Below, piece by piece: positions 15,189 to 36,001 of a stretch of DNA of 64,000 nt. Position numbers and translations under genes: made by a program. Each line of letters starts with the position of its first letter. Positions within the stretch are counted from its first letter, which is position 1. The notes beneath the pieces were generated by a model. That model worked only from the letters and a program-made list of their open reading frames with translations, was not told where the DNA came from and did not search any database. This stretch comes from Opitutales bacterium (GTDB lineage: Bacteria > Verrucomicrobiota > Verrucomicrobiia > Opitutales > Oceanipulchritudinaceae). The stretch covers positions 1 to 64,000 of the forward strand of contig JAFIGE010000001.1 in assembly GCA_020831585.1 (NCBI GenBank), in the 5' to 3' direction.

Positions 15189-15362
15189 ATGCTCAGTTGG
15201 ATTCTCACCTTTCTCGTTATTGCCCTGATCGCCGGGGTTCTCGGCTTCACCGGAATCGCCGGTGCGGCCACGGAAATCGCGAAGATCTTGTTTTTCGTGT
15301 TCCTCGTACTTCTTATTCTCTCCGCCTTGGTCGGCGCTTTGCGAGGGCGTCCGCCCGTCTGA
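15189..15362 (+). CDS. DUF1328-type small membrane protein
   Basis: A 57-residue protein with two hydrophobic segments: [20 protein letters not shown], then [20 protein letters not shown] and a short basic end. The pattern matches the DUF1328 (YtjA) family of small membrane proteins, often found beside entericidin-like lipoproteins and general stress genes; no biochemical function is known. The open frame runs in from upstream, but the ATG at 15189 begins exactly at the first hydrophobic stretch. An entericidin-like gene follows 54 nt later. Confidence 0.85.
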
Positions 15363-15416
15363 TCGGGGTATTTCAGGACGAACCTACAAAAAAGACACAG
15401 CAACCTTGGGGTCATC

Positions 15417-15557
15417 ATGAAAAAGATCTTATCAATGTGGTTTGGTTTGTTTCTCTCTATCGGAGTGCTCGCTTTCCTCACCGGCTGCGAAACCATGCAG
15501 GGAGCCGGACGGGATGTGCAGTCGGCTGGCGAGGCCATCGAAGAGGCCGCCCGCTGA
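15417..15557 (+). CDS. Entericidin-like small lipoprotein, 46 aa
   Basis: A tiny lipoprotein with a signal peptide (MKKILSMWFGLFLSIGVLAF), a lipobox LTGC with the lipidated cysteine at residue 24, and a short mature part rich in Gly, Ala and Glu (ETMQGAGRDVQSAGEAIEE). This is the pattern of the entericidin A/B family, small envelope lipoproteins linked to stress. Family members are frequently stress-induced, and the DUF1328 gene upstream has the same reputation. The next gene is 244 nt downstream, a stretch in which I see nothing recognisable. Confidence 0.85.
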   Translation: MKKILSMWFGLFLSIGVLAFLTGCETMQGAGRDVQSAGEAIEEAAR

Positions 15558-29987: not shown

Positions 29988-30605
29988 TCACGAAGCCGTG
30001 CGCTCAACGTGGAGAAAGTGCTGCCACGCCTCGTCGATGTCGGAACCCGCCGCCACCGAAACGAAGGGCCGCCAGCGCGGGCGCTCCGGTTTGCGGATCA
30101 GGCGCAAGCCCGCTTCGTGCGGGAGCCGGTTTGCCTTCAGCGAGTTCATTTCGCGCGAGCACGTCACGATGTTTTCCCACGTCGTGCGCCCACCCCGGTC
30201 ACGGGGAATGACATGGTCCAGCGTGAGGTCCTTGATTTTGCACACCCGCCCGGAGTATTGGCAGGTGAAATTGTCGCGCTCGAATACGCTCTGCCGGTTG
30301 AACTTCACCTCGGCCACGGGAAGACGGTTGAACTCCTTCAGGAGCAGGACCTTCGGCAAGAGAATATTCATGCGGATGGTGCGCACAAAATCCGATCCGG
30401 GGGGCGGCGTGCGCAGCTCCATGGAGTAGCTGAGCCACTCCGCCGTCGTCATGGGAGCGAAGTCTTTGCCAAAGGTGTTGATGACCCGGGCGTGGTCCTG
30501 CCAGAGAAGAGAGAAGGCACGGCGCACTCCGATGATGTTCACAGCCTGCCAATTTCGGTTCAAAACCAAAACCCGCCGCCGTGGCATGCGACCGTTGCTT
30601 CCCAA
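29988..30605 (-). CDS. HNH endonuclease family protein
   Basis: A small HNH nuclease of about 205 residues. The N-terminal part starts PRRRVLVLNRNWQAVNIIGV, which matches a widespread HNH family. The nuclease core reads LDHVIPRDRGGRTTWENIV, with the metal-binding histidine in LDHV and the Asn in WENIV, followed by NSLKANRLPHEAGL. The expected zinc-knuckle cysteines are only partly present (CQYSGRVC). The start is uncertain: TTG 30605 has AGAGGAG nine bases upstream, ATG 30587 and ATG 30638 lack one. It is divergent from the peptide-ligase operon, sharing a 167-bp upstream region. Confidence 0.85.
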   Translation of the reverse strand: MGSNGRMPRRRVLVLNRNWQAVNIIGVRRAFSLLWQDHARVINTFGKDFAPMTTAEWLSYSMELRTPPPGSDFVRTIRMNILLPKVLLLKEFNRLPVAEVKFNRQSVFERDNFTCQYSGRVCKIKDLTLDHVIPRDRGGRTTWENIVTCSREMNSLKANRLPHEAGLRLIRKPERPRWRPFVSVAAGSDIDEAWQHFLHVERTAS

Positions 30606-30772
30606 ACCATTTATCTCCTCTTCCGTTGCCGAGTTCATCTGCAATGAGCGCAAATGTGGCCATCGTCTCCCCCCTGTCAACGCCGTCTTCGCCCAAATGG
30701 TCGCCCAACGCGTGACATTCGTGCAAATTGCCCCAAGCGCCCTGCTTGCAATTTTTCGAAGGATTCGATGCA

Positions 30773-31585
30773 GTGGTTTCCTTGAGTTCGTCTCCCCCAA
30801 GCCCTGATGCTGAGCCCCGCACGCCGGAGGCCGGACCTCATGCGCCCGCTGTCTCCGCAGCGGCGGAACCGGTCAGCCCGCCACAGATAGATATCGATCT
30901 CAAGATCGGCCCGCAGCCCACCGACACGTCCTGTGGCCCCACCTGCCTGGAGGCCATTTATCGCTACTGGGATGATCCGCTCCCCATCGGAGACCTCATC
31001 CGCGAAGTGCCCTCCCTGGATGATGGCGGCACCCTCGCCGTCTCTCTCGGGCTCCATGCCCTCAAACGGGGATGGCGGGCGCGCCTCTACACCTACAACC
31101 TGCGCGTCTTCGATCCGACATGGTTTGACCTCCGTCCGAAAGTCATGCGCCACCAACTGGCCGCCCGCATCACCTGCACCCGGCGCGGCAAACGCCACAT
31201 CGCCGCCAAGGCCTACCTGCGCTTTCTCGAAAAAGGCGGCGAAGTGCGTTTTCAGGATCTCACCGGTCGGCTCATTCGCCGCTACCTCGACCGCCACATC
31301 CCCATCCTCACCGGCCTTAGCTCGACTTTCCTCTACCGCACAATGCGGGAAATCCCCGAGACAAATGAGGACGACGACATCCGCGGCGAACCGGCCGGCC
31401 ACTTTGTCGTTCTCACCGGCTACGACCGCGAAACACGGGAGGTCCTGGTTGCCGATCCCTATGAAGCCAATCCCTTCTCGGCGGACCGGCGTTACCGAGT
31501 ATCCATGAATCGTCTCCTCAACGCCATCCTTCTTGGCGTGCTCACTTACGATGCCAATCTCCTCATCATTCGCCCTCCCAAATGA
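30773..31585 (+). CDS. C39-like cysteine peptidase of the ligase operon
   Basis: A 270-residue protein with a papain-like, C39-type peptidase fold. The predicted nucleophile is C54 in PTDTSCGPTCLEAIYRYW, and the histidine-aspartate part is in GHFVVLTGYD and VLVADPYEANP. No signal peptide or ABC-transporter domain is attached, so it is probably cytoplasmic. The start is GTG 30773, with AAGGA nine bases upstream; the first 45 residues are proline-rich and poorly conserved in appearance. It overlaps the ATP-grasp gene by four bases (ATGA). Related peptidase-like genes are known next to RimK-like and GCS2 ligases in amidoligase clusters, where they may trim or hydrolyse the product. Confidence 0.82.
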   Translation: MVSLSSSPPSPDAEPRTPEAGPHAPAVSAAAEPVSPPQIDIDLKIGPQPTDTSCGPTCLEAIYRYWDDPLPIGDLIREVPSLDDGGTLAVSLGLHALKRGWRARLYTYNLRVFDPTWFDLRPKVMRHQLAARITCTRRGKRHIAAKAYLRFLEKGGEVRFQDLTGRLIRRYLDRHIPILTGLSSTFLYRTMREIPETNEDDDIRGEPAGHFVVLTGYDRETREVLVADPYEANPFSADRRYRVSMNRLLNAILLGVLTYDANLLIIRPPK

Positions 31586-33054
31586 ACCCCTTCCTCCTCG
31601 TTGTCGATAACCCCGACCGGTGGCCCATTGATGTGCCCGGCGTGCGCGTCGTGGCCGCCCGCACCTACCTTTCCGATCCCGCCTTTGTCGAGAACCGGCG
31701 CTTCAAGGTCCTCAACATGTGCCGTTCCTACCGGTATCAAAGCGTCGGATACTATGTTTCCCTGCTGGCAGGTGCCCGCGGGCACCGCCCCGTCCCGAGC
31801 GTCTCCACCATCCTCGACCTGAAGTCCCAGTCGATCATCCGCTCGGTGTCGGCCGACCTTGAAGATACAATCCGGCACTCCCTCCAACCTCTCCAATCGG
31901 ACAAATTCACCCTCTCGATCTACTTTGCCCGAAACATGGCCAAGCGGCACGACCGCCTCAGCCGCGCTCTCTTCAACCTGTTCCCCGCGCCGCTCCTTCG
32001 CGCGCACTTTCGCCGGGAAGGCGAAGACGGCCCCTGGAGCCTCATCAATATTTCGCCCATCGCTTCGAGCGACATTCCCGAAGACCACCGGTCCTTTGTC
32101 CGCGAAGCGGCCACGGCTTACTTTTCGCGCCCCGTCTTTGCCCGCAAGAGCCGCAAGGCTTACCGCTTCGACCTCGCGATCCTCGTCGATCCCCGCGAGG
32201 CCACCCCCCCCTCCAACGAACGCGCCCTCCGCCTCTTTGAAAAGGCGGCCGAAAACCTCGGCATTGCCACCGAGTTGATCACAGCGGAGGACTACGGGCG
32301 CCTATCCGAGTTCGACGGGCTCTTCATTCGCCGCACCACCTCCGTGGACAACTACACCTACCGCTTCGCCCGCAAGGCAGAGGCCGAAAATCTCGTCGTC
32401 ATCGATGATCCCCTCTCCATTCTCCGCTGCGGCAACAAGGTCTTCCTCGCCGAAGTTCTTAACCGCCACCACATTACCACACCGCGGACCCTGATCATTC
32501 ACCGCGACAACGTCGCCGCCGCCCCCGGATACCTTGGCCTCCCCCTCATCCTCAAACAGCCCGACTCCTCCTTCTCCCAAGGCGTCGTCAAAGCCAAAGA
32601 TGCCGACGAATATAAACGCCTCATCGCTGAGCTGCTCGACGATTCGGAAATGGTCATTGGGCAGGAGTTTCTCCCCACCCCCTTCGATTGGCGGGTCGGG
32701 GTGCTTGAAGGCAAAGCCCTCTACGTCTGCCAGTACTTCATGGCCCGCGGACATTGGCAAATCTACAACCACGACAAAAAAGGCCGCGACTTCACCGGAA
32801 ACGCCACCACCCTGCCCCTCGACAAAGCCCCGCCCGCCATTGTTGAAACCGCCGTCAAAGCCGCCAACTGTTTTGGCAACGGGCTCTACGGCGTCGACCT
32901 CAAAGAAGTCAACGGGCGCACCGTGGTCATTGAAGTAAACGATAACCCCACCGTCGACCACGGCATCGAAGACGAGGTCCTGCAGAACCAACTCTACGAA
33001 GCCATCATGCGCTGTTTCCTGCGCCGCATGGAAGCCAAACGCGAAGCCCGGTAG
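31582..33054 (+). CDS. RimK-like ATP-grasp ligase with N-terminal RLAN-type domain
   Basis: A 490-residue protein whose C-terminal half is an ATP-grasp ligase. Visible parts are LPLILKQPDSSFSQGVVKAK (nucleotide-binding lysine), IGQEFLPTPFDWRVGVLEG and the metal-binding end IEVNDNPTVDHG (E451, N453). Such enzymes form amide bonds through an acyl-phosphate, usually adding amino acids to a carboxylate. The N-terminal about 200 residues (from MNPFLLVVDNPDRWPIDVPG) match the form of the RimK-like N-terminal domain described for this subgroup, not the ribosomal-protein modifier RimK itself. It is coupled to the C39-like gene upstream; the GCS2 ligase starts 22 nt downstream. Confidence 0.88.
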   Translation: MNPFLLVVDNPDRWPIDVPGVRVVAARTYLSDPAFVENRRFKVLNMCRSYRYQSVGYYVSLLAGARGHRPVPSVSTILDLKSQSIIRSVSADLEDTIRHSLQPLQSDKFTLSIYFARNMAKRHDRLSRALFNLFPAPLLRAHFRREGEDGPWSLINISPIASSDIPEDHRSFVREAATAYFSRPVFARKSRKAYRFDLAILVDPREATPPSNERALRLFEKAAENLGIATELITAEDYGRLSEFDGLFIRRTTSVDNYTYRFARKAEAENLVVIDDPLSILRCGNKVFLAEVLNRHHITTPRTLIIHRDNVAAAPGYLGLPLILKQPDSSFSQGVVKAKDADEYKRLIAELLDDSEMVIGQEFLPTPFDWRVGVLEGKALYVCQYFMARGHWQIYNHDKKGRDFTGNATTLPLDKAPPAIVETAVKAANCFGNGLYGVDLKEVNGRTVVIEVNDNPTVDHGIEDEVLQNQLYEAIMRCFLRRMEAKREAR

Positions 33055-33076
33055 ACCGCCGCCTCCACCCATTTTT

Positions 33077-34306
33077 ATGTCCGCACCCTTCCACCTCTTC
33101 GAACGCTACGGCGTGGAACTCGAATACATGATCGTCGACAGCGCCAGCCTCAATGTGCGCCCGATCGCCGATAAGATCGTCCATGCCGTTGGCCTCGGGC
33201 GCAAAAATGAAGTCAAGCACGGCAACCTCCGCTGGTCCAATGAACTCGTGCTCCACGTCATTGAACTGAAGACCGATGGACCGGCGCGATCCCTCGATAG
33301 CCTCGCCACCGACTTTCAAAAGGAAGTTCGCTACCTCAACGGGATGCTCGCGGACTATGCCTGTTGCCTCCTTCCCACGGCCATGCACCCCTGGATGGAC
33401 CCCCACACCGAGACCCGCCTCTGGCCACACGGAGACCGCGCCATTTACCAAGCCTTCGACCGCATTTTCGATTGCCGCGGGCACGGTTGGTCCAATCTCC
33501 AATCCACCCACATCAACCTGCCTTTTCACGGAGACGAGGAATTCCGGCGACTCCACAGCGCCATCCGTCTCATCCTCCCCCTCATCCCGGCTCTCGCCGC
33601 GAGTTCCCCCATCGTCGAAGGCAAGATCGGCCCCAAGCTCGACATGCGCCTCGAGCACTACCGCCACAACTGCGCCCGCATTCCCTCCATTACCGGGCGC
33701 GTCATCCCCGAACGCATCCACTCCCCCGCCGAGTATGCGGAAAGGATCCTCCAGCGCATGTATGCCGACATCGCTCCCCACGACCCCGAAGGCATCCTCC
33801 GCGACGAGTGGCTCAATGCGCGCGGGGCCATCGCCCGCTTCGAACGCGGCACCATCGAAATCCGCGTCCTCGACATTCAGGAAAACCCCGCCGTCGACCT
33901 CGCCATCGTGCAGTTCATCGTCGCCATCCTCAAAGCCCTCGTGAGCGAAACTCTCTCCCCCCTCAAGGCGCAGGAAGCCCCCCTCGGTGCCGACCTCGCC
34001 GACACCTTTCTCCAAAGCCTCACCACCGGCAGCGACACCTTGGTCAACAACGCCGCCACCCTCAACGCCTTCGGCCTTGCCGACACCCCCTCCGCCACCC
34101 TCAACAACATTCTCTGGCACCTCCTCCGGCGAGTCGCCACGCTCCGACACCCCTGGCGTCCCCTCATTGAAAAGATCCTCCGGCAAGGCTGCCTTGCCCG
34201 CCGCATCCGCCGGGCACTGCCCAAAGCCCCCAACCGCGCCGCTCTCCACACCCTCTACGACCGACTCGCCGCCTGCCTCCACAACGGTGAATTTTTTGAA
34301 GCCTGA
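33077..34306 (+). CDS. GCS2-family carboxylate-amine ligase
   Basis: A 409-residue member of the glutamate-cysteine ligase family 2. The family hallmark GVELEYMIVD (residues 12-21) begins the metal/ATP site. Further conserved stretches are STHINLPFHGDEEF, the arginine-rich CARIPSITGR and RGTIEIRVLDIQ. These enzymes join an amino group to the gamma-carboxyl of glutamate or a similar acid; the actual substrate here is unknown. With the ATP-grasp gene it makes two different amide-forming enzymes in one operon, which implies at least a dipeptide product or a two-step modification. Confidence 0.88.
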   Translation: MSAPFHLFERYGVELEYMIVDSASLNVRPIADKIVHAVGLGRKNEVKHGNLRWSNELVLHVIELKTDGPARSLDSLATDFQKEVRYLNGMLADYACCLLPTAMHPWMDPHTETRLWPHGDRAIYQAFDRIFDCRGHGWSNLQSTHINLPFHGDEEFRRLHSAIRLILPLIPALAASSPIVEGKIGPKLDMRLEHYRHNCARIPSITGRVIPERIHSPAEYAERILQRMYADIAPHDPEGILRDEWLNARGAIARFERGTIEIRVLDIQENPAVDLAIVQFIVAILKALVSETLSPLKAQEAPLGADLADTFLQSLTTGSDTLVNNAATLNAFGLADTPSATLNNILWHLLRRVATLRHPWRPLIEKILRQGCLARRIRRALPKAPNRAALHTLYDRLAACLHNGEFFEA

Positions 34307-34958
34307 GCCCGGCACGGCCCTCATCCTCACCTGCGAGCACGCCACCGCCGACGTGCCGCCCCCTTACCGCGACCTCTTCGCCAGCGAAGCCGCCCAAGCC
34401 GCCCTTGCCTCCCACCGCGGCTGGGATCCCCAGGCCCATCTCCTCGCGAATCACCTCCACACCACCACCGGGGCTCCCCTCATCGTCGGCACGGCCACCC
34501 GCCTCCTCGTCGAACTCAACCGCTCGCCTCACCACCCTGCACTCTGGTCCGAGTTTACCCGTGCCCTCCCCTGGTCCACCCGCGAGCACATTCTCCGGAC
34601 CCTTTATTTCCCCTACCGCCGAGAAATCGTCGACCGTATCCGCCACCACCTCTGCAGCGCCCCCCGCGTCCTCCACCTCTCCCTTCACACCTTCACCCCC
34701 ATCTGGAACGGCCAGCCCCGTCCCATCGACCTCGCCCTCCTCTACGACCCTCACCGCCCCGCCGAAGCCGCCTACGCCGCACAATGGCACACCCGCCTCA
34801 CCCACCACCACCCCCACCTTCGCCTTGCCCACAACGCCCCCTACCGCGGCACCGACGACGGCCTCACCACCACCCTCCGCCAGCACTTCGGCCCCCGCTA
34901 CCTCGGCATCGAACTCGAATGGAACCAAGCCCTCCCCCCCCATCCCGTATACCTCTGA
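34287..34958 (+). CDS. N-formylglutamate amidohydrolase-like protein
   Basis: A 223-residue member of the N-formylglutamate amidohydrolase (FGase) family, zinc hydrolases acting on N-acyl amino acids. Family features are ALILTCEHATADVPPPY at the start, HRGWDPQA, VELNRSP and SLHTFTPIWNG, followed by the late LGIELEWNQ. The GTG at 34287 is used and overlaps the GCS2 stop by 20 bases; TTG 34296 is an alternative. The open frame extends upstream inside GCS2, but that part is not coding. It ends the four-gene unit and could hydrolyse or recycle the ligase product. Confidence 0.88.
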   Translation: MNFLKPEPGTALILTCEHATADVPPPYRDLFASEAAQAALASHRGWDPQAHLLANHLHTTTGAPLIVGTATRLLVELNRSPHHPALWSEFTRALPWSTREHILRTLYFPYRREIVDRIRHHLCSAPRVLHLSLHTFTPIWNGQPRPIDLALLYDPHRPAEAAYAAQWHTRLTHHHPHLRLAHNAPYRGTDDGLTTTLRQHFGPRYLGIELEWNQALPPHPVYL

Positions 34959-35026
34959 TTTGAAAAAATAATCACACAGTCTGATTATTGATTGACTTCT
35001 GGTTGGGGAGCTGGCTGGTATGGGGC

Positions 35027-36001
35027 ATGCGAATCAAGATGCGTAAGCGGTTGGGGGTGTATCACTGTGTGAGCCGGGTGGTGGACCGGCGAAGGGTGCT
35101 GGGGGAGGTGGAGAAGGAGGTGATGCGCAAGATCCTGTGGCGGGTGGCGGATTTTTGTGGGGTGGAGCTGCTCACTTATTGCCTGATGGGCAATCACTTC
35201 CATGTGCTGGTGCGGGCAGGGAAGGAACAGGGTGCGGCGAGCGATGCGGCGGTTTATGCGCGGGCCGAGGGCTACTATGCCAGCGGACAAAGCTTGGCGC
35301 AAAAGGAGTATTGGGCGGAGATTGAGCGGGCTTACCGAAAAGGGGGCGAAGATTGGACCGGGTGGGCGGAGCGCCTGCGGGCACGGATGGGGGATGTGTC
35401 GTGGTTTATGCGGCTGTTTAAGCAGGGGTTCTCGGTGTGGTTCAACCGGCGGGGAGATCGCACGGGGACGCTCTGGGAGAGCCGTTTTACGAGCGTGTTG
35501 GTGGAGGATGCGCCGCTGGCAGTGGCGACGGTGGCCGCTTACATCGATTTAAATCCGGTGCGGGCGGGGCTGGTGAAGGATCCGAAAGATTACCGGTGGT
35601 GCGGGTATGCGGAGGCGCTGGCGCGGGGAAAACGGAGGCGTCCGTCGCTTTGTTGTTTGTTTCAGGCGAAGGATTGGGCGGAGGCGCTGGCGCGGTATCG
35701 CCTGATCCTGTTCAACAAGGGGGCATCGGGGAAACCGGGGCAGGCTTCGATTTCGCCGGAGGCGCGAAAAGCGGTGCAGGTGCAGGGCGGGCGGTTGGGC
35801 CTGGGGTCGCTGGTGCGGCACCGGGTGCGCTACTTCACGGCGGGAGCGGTGGTGGGGAGCCGCGCATTTGTGGAGGCATGCTTTGCGGATTTCCGTGAGC
35901 GGTTTGGGCGGAATCGGAAGAAGGGGGCGCACGCAATGCGCGGAGGCGACTGGGAGGGACTGACGAGTCTTCGGGATTTGCAGAAGGATATTCCGGGATA
36001 A
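35027..36001 (+). CDS. REP-associated tyrosine transposase (RAYT)
   Basis: A 324-residue Y1/HUH transposase with GVYHCVSRVVDRRRVL, the HxH motif in MGNHFHVLVRAG, GTLWESRFTSVLVED and [14 protein letters not shown] carrying the predicted nucleophilic tyrosine. It shares its C-terminal form with the copy at 14110-15108, so those two form one subgroup. The ATG 35027 is preferred over the TTG at 34988. A TTGACT lies about 30 nt upstream, after a short AT-rich stretch. It sits alone between the ligase operon and hemH, with no recognisable REP sequence within a few hundred bases. Confidence 0.9.
   Translation: MRIKMRKRLGVYHCVSRVVDRRRVLGEVEKEVMRKILWRVADFCGVELLTYCLMGNHFHVLVRAGKEQGAASDAAVYARAEGYYASGQSLAQKEYWAEIERAYRKGGEDWTGWAERLRARMGDVSWFMRLFKQGFSVWFNRRGDRTGTLWESRFTSVLVEDAPLAVATVAAYIDLNPVRAGLVKDPKDYRWCGYAEALARGKRRRPSLCCLFQAKDWAEALARYRLILFNKGASGKPGQASISPEARKAVQVQGGRLGLGSLVRHRVRYFTAGAVVGSRAFVEACFADFRERFGRNRKKGAHAMRGGDWEGLTSLRDLQKDIPG

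Follow-up and report, generated by a model that had tools for sequence, protein, structure and literature searches.

A four-gene operon combining an RLAN-domain ATP-grasp ligase, a divergent GCS2 ligase and two hydrolase-like proteins, possibly for a small N-capped peptide

We analysed a 64,000-nt stretch of an Opitutales genome, referred to below as the window (contig JAFIGE010000001.1, positions 1 to 64,000). A four-gene operon occupies positions 30773-34958 of its plus strand, and all four frames are open:

30773..31585, plus strand: C39-like cysteine peptidase; GTG start (uncertain), TGA stop, 270 aa; Peptidase_C39_2 1.1e-11
31582..33054, plus strand: RLAN-domain RimK/LysX-like ATP-grasp ligase; ATG to TAG, 490 aa; PF14401 3.6e-46, PF08443 6.5e-9
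33077..34306, plus strand: divergent GCS2-family carboxylate-amine ligase; ATG to TGA, 409 aa; PF04107 6.6e-26
34287..34958, plus strand: N-formylglutamate-amidohydrolase-like (HutG/FGase) protein; GTG to TGA, 223 aa; PF05013 1.5e-17

The first-pass annotation of this DNA had described two ligases of unrelated type grouped with an amidohydrolase and a cysteine peptidase-like protein, and the Pfam domains agree in four of four frames. Its spacing was likewise confirmed by the coordinates: the C39 and ATP-grasp genes overlap by 4 nt (31582-31585), a gap of 22 nt (33055-33076) separates the ATP-grasp and GCS2 genes, and the GCS2 and FGase genes overlap by 20 nt (34287-34306). A gene for a Y1-type (IS200-like, PF01797) transposase lies on the same strand about 30 nt downstream of the operon (34988-36001). 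Upstream and divergent is an HNH endonuclease gene (29988-30800, minus strand). As listed, its ORF would start inside the C39 gene; its true start is probably nearer 30640.

The first protein scored 45.9 bits against Peptidase_C39_2 (gathering score 24) and 1.3e-4 against Peptidase_C39 in Pfam. With the Gln, Cys, His and Asp also present, it can be placed among the predicted C39-like peptidases. The Cys, His and Asp sit in the motifs QPTDTSCGPTC, GHFVV and VADPY, and Q49, C55, H211 and D229 were invariant among 34 C39-like homologs. These residues are numbered on the translation beginning at 30770; in the first-pass numbering, the catalytic-type Cys of the QPTDTSCGPTC motif is C54. The gene start is uncertain: homologs start approximately 10-20 aa ahead of the QPTxTxCG motif, and no ATG, GTG or TTG occurs at a corresponding position in the window. 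The nearest folds to the AF2 model (pLDDT 88.5), all weak matches, were xylellain, the phytochelatin synthase Alr0975, the pseudomurein endoisopeptidase PeiR, and the peptidase domains of ComA and PCAT1.

The second protein is an RLAN domain fused to a RimK-like ATP-grasp domain (Pfam). The RLAN domain (PF14401, residues 26-176, 157 bits against a gathering score of 25) is the most diagnostic part of the ligase and went unnamed in the first-pass annotation. The ATP/Mg residues K286, K325, D439, E451 and N453 were invariant among 33 ligase homologs. The best NCBIfam scores were below cut-off (LysX, 68.8 bits vs 275.6; rimK_fam, 66.5 vs 143.4); the Ngg equivalog model TIGR03103 did not match the ligase, and no score reached the GshB level. 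RimK, ArgX and LysX were the nearest folds to the AF2 model (pLDDT 83.6; TM by target ~0.78), and the RLAN domain had no clear fold relative of its own among the 50 structure matches listed, all of them described as ATP-grasp enzymes. The ligase shares the ATP-grasp domain, its fold and the conserved Mg/ATP residues with RimK, LysX and ArgX, but differs from them in the extra N-terminal RLAN domain (~150 aa), the sub-equivalog scores and the other operon partners.

The third protein belongs to the GCS2 superfamily (PF04107, 91.8 bits vs a gathering score of 21), and its residues E14, E16, R249 and R263 were invariant among 34 homologs. Because it falls below every NCBIfam GshA/YbdK cut-off (best, TIGR02050 at 52.9 vs 176.4; TIGR02048 at 26.6 vs 249) and shares only 20% identity with the YbdK-type paralog of the same genome, we assign it to a separate subfamily. 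Its profile gave only short, weak matches to plant GCL in the PDB (E ~0.08). The fourth protein matched PF05013 (64.9 bits vs a gathering score of 28.9) and PDB entry 2ODF (Atu2144, 1.7e-18), and C16-E17-H18, H43, H130, H134, R145 and E209 were invariant among 29 FGase homologs. With E17, H18 and H134 as putative metal-binding residues, it is probably a metal amidohydrolase. It is the sole PF05013 protein found in the window's genome, and no histidine-degradation gene is conserved beside it among the flanks of 80 loci. For all four genes, the invariance of catalytic-type residues across phyla fits active enzymes.

The genome has separate, genuine NAGGN, RimK and YbdK copies besides the window genes, and no GshB over the cut-off. 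Its canonical NAGGN pair (G000:C238 ~15192-15434; L137:2-2733) consists of Ngg, a GNAT-ATPgrasp fusion (TIGR03103, 826.7 bits), beside an M42 peptidase (TIGR03106, 533 bits). The YbdK-type GCS2 paralog (G000:C44:14861-15694; L133) has an M20-like amidohydrolase and the ATPase of an ABC transporter as neighbours. A RimK-family ligase (G000:C52:28528-29163; L136) adjoins what is, by eye, a succinylglutamate-desuccinylase-like protein, another ligase-hydrolase pair. NAGGN, RimK, YbdK and GshB identities for the window genes were rejected by the cut-offs and, GshB apart, also by these separate copies.

Two known pathways resemble the operon. NAGGN synthesis (Ngg, AsnO, M42) also combines an N-capping enzyme, an ATP-grasp dipeptide ligase and a peptidase in a compact operon, and GNAT-ATPgrasp fusions occur in RLAN systems too. 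The window operon differs by its RLAN domain, GCS2 and FGase and by having no AsnO, M42 or TIGR03103 match; since C39, GCS2 and FGase stand in place of AsnO and M42, we rejected it as an NAGGN operon. Glutathione synthesis (GCS2-type GshA, GshB and the fused GshF) likewise brings GCS2 and ATP-grasp together and has fusions of both, whereas here a RimK/LysX-like ATP-grasp carries RLAN, and C39-like and FGase proteins are added. Membership of glutathione biosynthesis was rejected on both the GshA/YbdK and the GshB cut-offs.

A glutathione-like thiol pathway, in which GCS2 would make gamma-Glu-Cys, the ATP-grasp would add a third residue and the C39-like protein would act as a primitive phytochelatin synthase hydrolysing glutathione, seems improbable. 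GCS2 plus ATP-grasp is indeed the pairing of cyanobacterial-type GshA with GshB, and phytochelatin synthase with glutathione (E 1e-4) is among the fold matches to the C39 model. However, these matches are weak (TM by query 0.37-0.44) and common to ordinary C39 and papain folds, the GCS2 protein lies far under the GshA/YbdK cut-offs, and the ATP-grasp is RimK/LysX-like rather than GshB-like. GshB passed its cut-off in only two of 45 carrier genomes, with full-length weaker matches in three more; this scarcity is compatible with a thiol role and no more, as these phyla may commonly lack GshB.

We estimated the distribution of the operon with a GCS2-alignment scan of 84,980 genomes, one per species. 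The scan yielded 549 genome loci that encode this GCS2 subfamily, and the best 80 of the 549 were kept for mapping. Profile mapping showed that most of these 80 loci, which span at least ten phyla, preserve the gene set, its order and its strand, with FGase in roughly 60%. Carriers were labelled Verrucomicrobiota, Kiritimatiellota, Planctomycetota, Hydrogenedentota, Sumerlaeota, Thermodesulfobacteriota, Myxococcota, Pseudomonadota, Balneolota/Bacteroidota, Rhodothermota, Acidobacteriota, Omnitrophota and Chlamydiota; the names follow record labels, many of them of metagenome bins, and individual assignments may be wrong. No viral copies of the cassette were confirmed.

In the 105 RLAN loci surveyed, most of them found via GCS2 and some genomes counted twice, 47 had C39, ATP-grasp, GCS2 and FGase, and 23 more had C39, ATP-grasp and GCS2. 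The four-gene arrangement is therefore far from chance. FGase was absent in ~40% of the GCS2 loci of this survey, some of which may be accounted for by contig ends. Five of the 105 loci had RLAN without any partner looked for, and the GCS2-FGase and C39-ATPgrasp pairs are separated in some Pirellulales; the four genes thus need not act strictly together. An RLAN ligase annotated as a RimK family alpha-L-glutamate ligase occurs on the Pseudomonas aeruginosa plasmid pZYPA1927 (L132:3905-5494), without adjoining GCS2, FGase or GNAT.

The flanks of the 80 loci held no conserved partner (the largest cluster comprised six of 80). No transporter or ABC exporter, no oxidoreductase, transferase or other modifying enzyme, and no small ORF of the precursor or LysW-like carrier kind was conserved beside the operon, in line with the earlier remark that a transporter and a precursor peptide gene are missing. 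Because the flanks are unconserved and a conserved small ORF is lacking, nothing points to a ribosomal precursor, a carrier or a transporter, and the cassette looks complete in itself, unlike a RiPP or bacteriocin system. A RiPP/graspetide or C39 bacteriocin assignment was rejected, as neither a conserved precursor ORF nor an ABC exporter adjoins the operon.

The partner of the RLAN ligase was found to vary: some loci pair it with GCS2, frequently accompanied by FGase, and others with a RimI-like GNAT, which in some cases carries a fused C39-like domain. In the window's own phylum, RLAN was detected in 21 of 145 genomes. This GCS2 was present in five, always adjoining RLAN, GNAT accompanied RLAN in about a dozen, and no genome had both. 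Most of the other RLAN genes of the phylum adjoin a RimI-like GNAT, in some cases as a fusion with the C39-like DUF3335; in NCBIfam, the partner GNAT scores best against RimI. In Planctomycetota, sampled by RLAN alone, the domain occurred in 53 of 195 genomes. Among the 40 loci read, 33 had GCS2, six had GNAT, one had neither and none had both (p = 1.8e-6 for exclusivity, relatedness ignored); all four genes were present in 22. One locus, L062, may be an exception: there, a weakly matching GNAT fragment adjoins the GCS2 operon where the contig ends. FGase was found in no RLAN locus without GCS2. On the ligase tree, the GNAT/GCS2 partner label requires only two changes.

Both versions also occur as fusions: RLAN-ATPgrasp-GCS2 proteins of ~1020 aa in Planctomycetota (L139:3393-6473 and L140:2560-5619) and GNAT-RLAN-ATPgrasp proteins at three loci (L030, L147 and L148). 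These fusions suggest that the joined enzymes catalyse successive steps. Together, the partner exclusivity, the restriction of FGase, the fusions and the Pirellulales split suggest that C39 and ATP-grasp form one unit and FGase and GCS2 another, and that GCS2 and GNAT play equivalent parts, each forming an amide on an amine. RLAN-GNAT systems are thus like the window operon in ligase family and, in some, in a C39-like domain, but differ in that GNAT replaces GCS2 and FGase and that their C39-like domain is of the DUF3335 type. The searchable literature yielded no characterised product of the RLAN-GNAT systems.

A gamma-glutamyl protection cycle was considered in the light of this pattern. GCS2 would mask an amine, the masked compound would be processed by the ATP-grasp or another enzyme, and FGase or C39 would unmask it, as in the LysW/ArgX, ergothioneine and butirosin routes. 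Two hydrolases beside two ligases, FGase confined to GCS2 loci and LysX/ArgX among the nearest relatives of the ligase are what such a cycle would predict, but neither a modifying enzyme nor a small carrier protein such as LysW is conserved beside the cassette. We regard it as no less improbable than the thiol pathway, and both as less likely than the reading given next.

We propose, with a probability of about 0.5, that the four genes encode a non-ribosomal pathway, probably cytoplasmic and complete in itself, by which a small N-capped peptide metabolite is made and recycled. In this scheme GCS2 would cap the amino group of an acceptor, going by its family most likely with glutamate via the gamma-carboxylate, and in the sister systems the RimI-like GNAT would cap with an acyl group instead. 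The RLAN ATP-grasp would act as RimK/LysX do and form a second amide bond. The product would resemble (gamma-Glu)-X-Y, or acyl-X-Y where GNAT is the partner, with an architecture similar to that of NAGGN or glutathione. We tentatively match the C39-like peptidase to the ATP-grasp bond, because a C39-like domain occurs with GCS2 and with GNAT alike, and FGase to the GCS2 bond, because FGase does not occur without GCS2; the two hydrolases may jointly trim the product or return its parts. We infer the substrates, the order of steps, the ligase-hydrolase pairing and the role, which could be that of a compatible solute, a reserve or a thiol-like metabolite. In favour of this reading we count the conserved order and strand, the unconserved flanks without a shared small ORF, the GCS2/GNAT exclusivity, the confinement of FGase to GCS2 loci, the fusions and the two-change tree, with a characterised analogue in the Ngg GNAT-ATPgrasp fusion beside the M42 peptidase of the same genome. 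Against it we count the FGase missing from many GCS2 loci, the GNAT fragment of L062 and the protein substrates of RimK and LysX and of RimI, the best match of the partner GNAT.

Protein tagging and untagging is the main rival, because RimK, LysX and RimI all act on proteins; for the same reason a protein substrate keeps some weight, although we consider tagging unlikely overall. Here the RLAN ATP-grasp would, like RimK, extend a protein terminus or side chain with amino acids, GCS2 would add or cap a gamma-linked residue, and C39 and FGase would expose the site or remove the tag. Such a scheme would suit a ligase whose nearest relatives, RimK, ArgX and LysX, modify proteins, as well as RimI-like partner GNATs, and two ligases with two hydrolases would fit a reversible mark. 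RimK/RimB offers a precedent as a known ligase-protease pair (PMC12239564). On the other side, no target gene is conserved in the neighbourhood of the operon. The ATP-grasp fusions to GCS2 or GNAT resemble GshF and Ngg, which are small-molecule enzymes, and the characterised GCS2 enzymes are also known to act on small molecules. The first-pass annotation had left the choice between a small peptide-like product and a protein tag; the former is now favoured, with the tag as the less likely rival.

The operon is real, widespread and, as far as could be checked, without characterisation. Each enzyme family was already known, and the interest lies in the gene combination and the GNAT/GCS2 swap; the wide distribution, the RLAN domain and the replacement of GCS2 and FGase by GNAT in other genomes are additions to the first-pass annotation. 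Its statement that no characterised product is known for the combination held for the searchable literature, and we found no characterised operon of such make-up in open-access publications; a 2009 amidoligase survey (Iyer et al., doi 10.1039/b917682a) may list the window operon. Iyer et al. reportedly predicted amidoligase operons, with which the window operon shares the general idea of ATP-grasp/GCS2/peptidase pathways, and the RLAN domain probably takes its name from there.

A four-enzyme pathway kept over hundreds of genomes and many phyla, yet lacking a known product, suggests that a common metabolite or modification has been overlooked. GCS2/GNAT exclusivity around one ligase predicts that one molecule exists in two forms, distinguished by the amino-end cap. 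A broader and more tentative extension of the N-capped peptide reading is a phylum-spanning class of such peptides, gamma-glutamyl with GCS2 and acyl with GNAT, which would be made by RLAN ligases and turned over by C39-like proteins and FGase, and could form a new family of compatible solutes, reserves or thiols. Cultivated carriers exist, such as Blastopirellula marina and Roseivirga spongicola.
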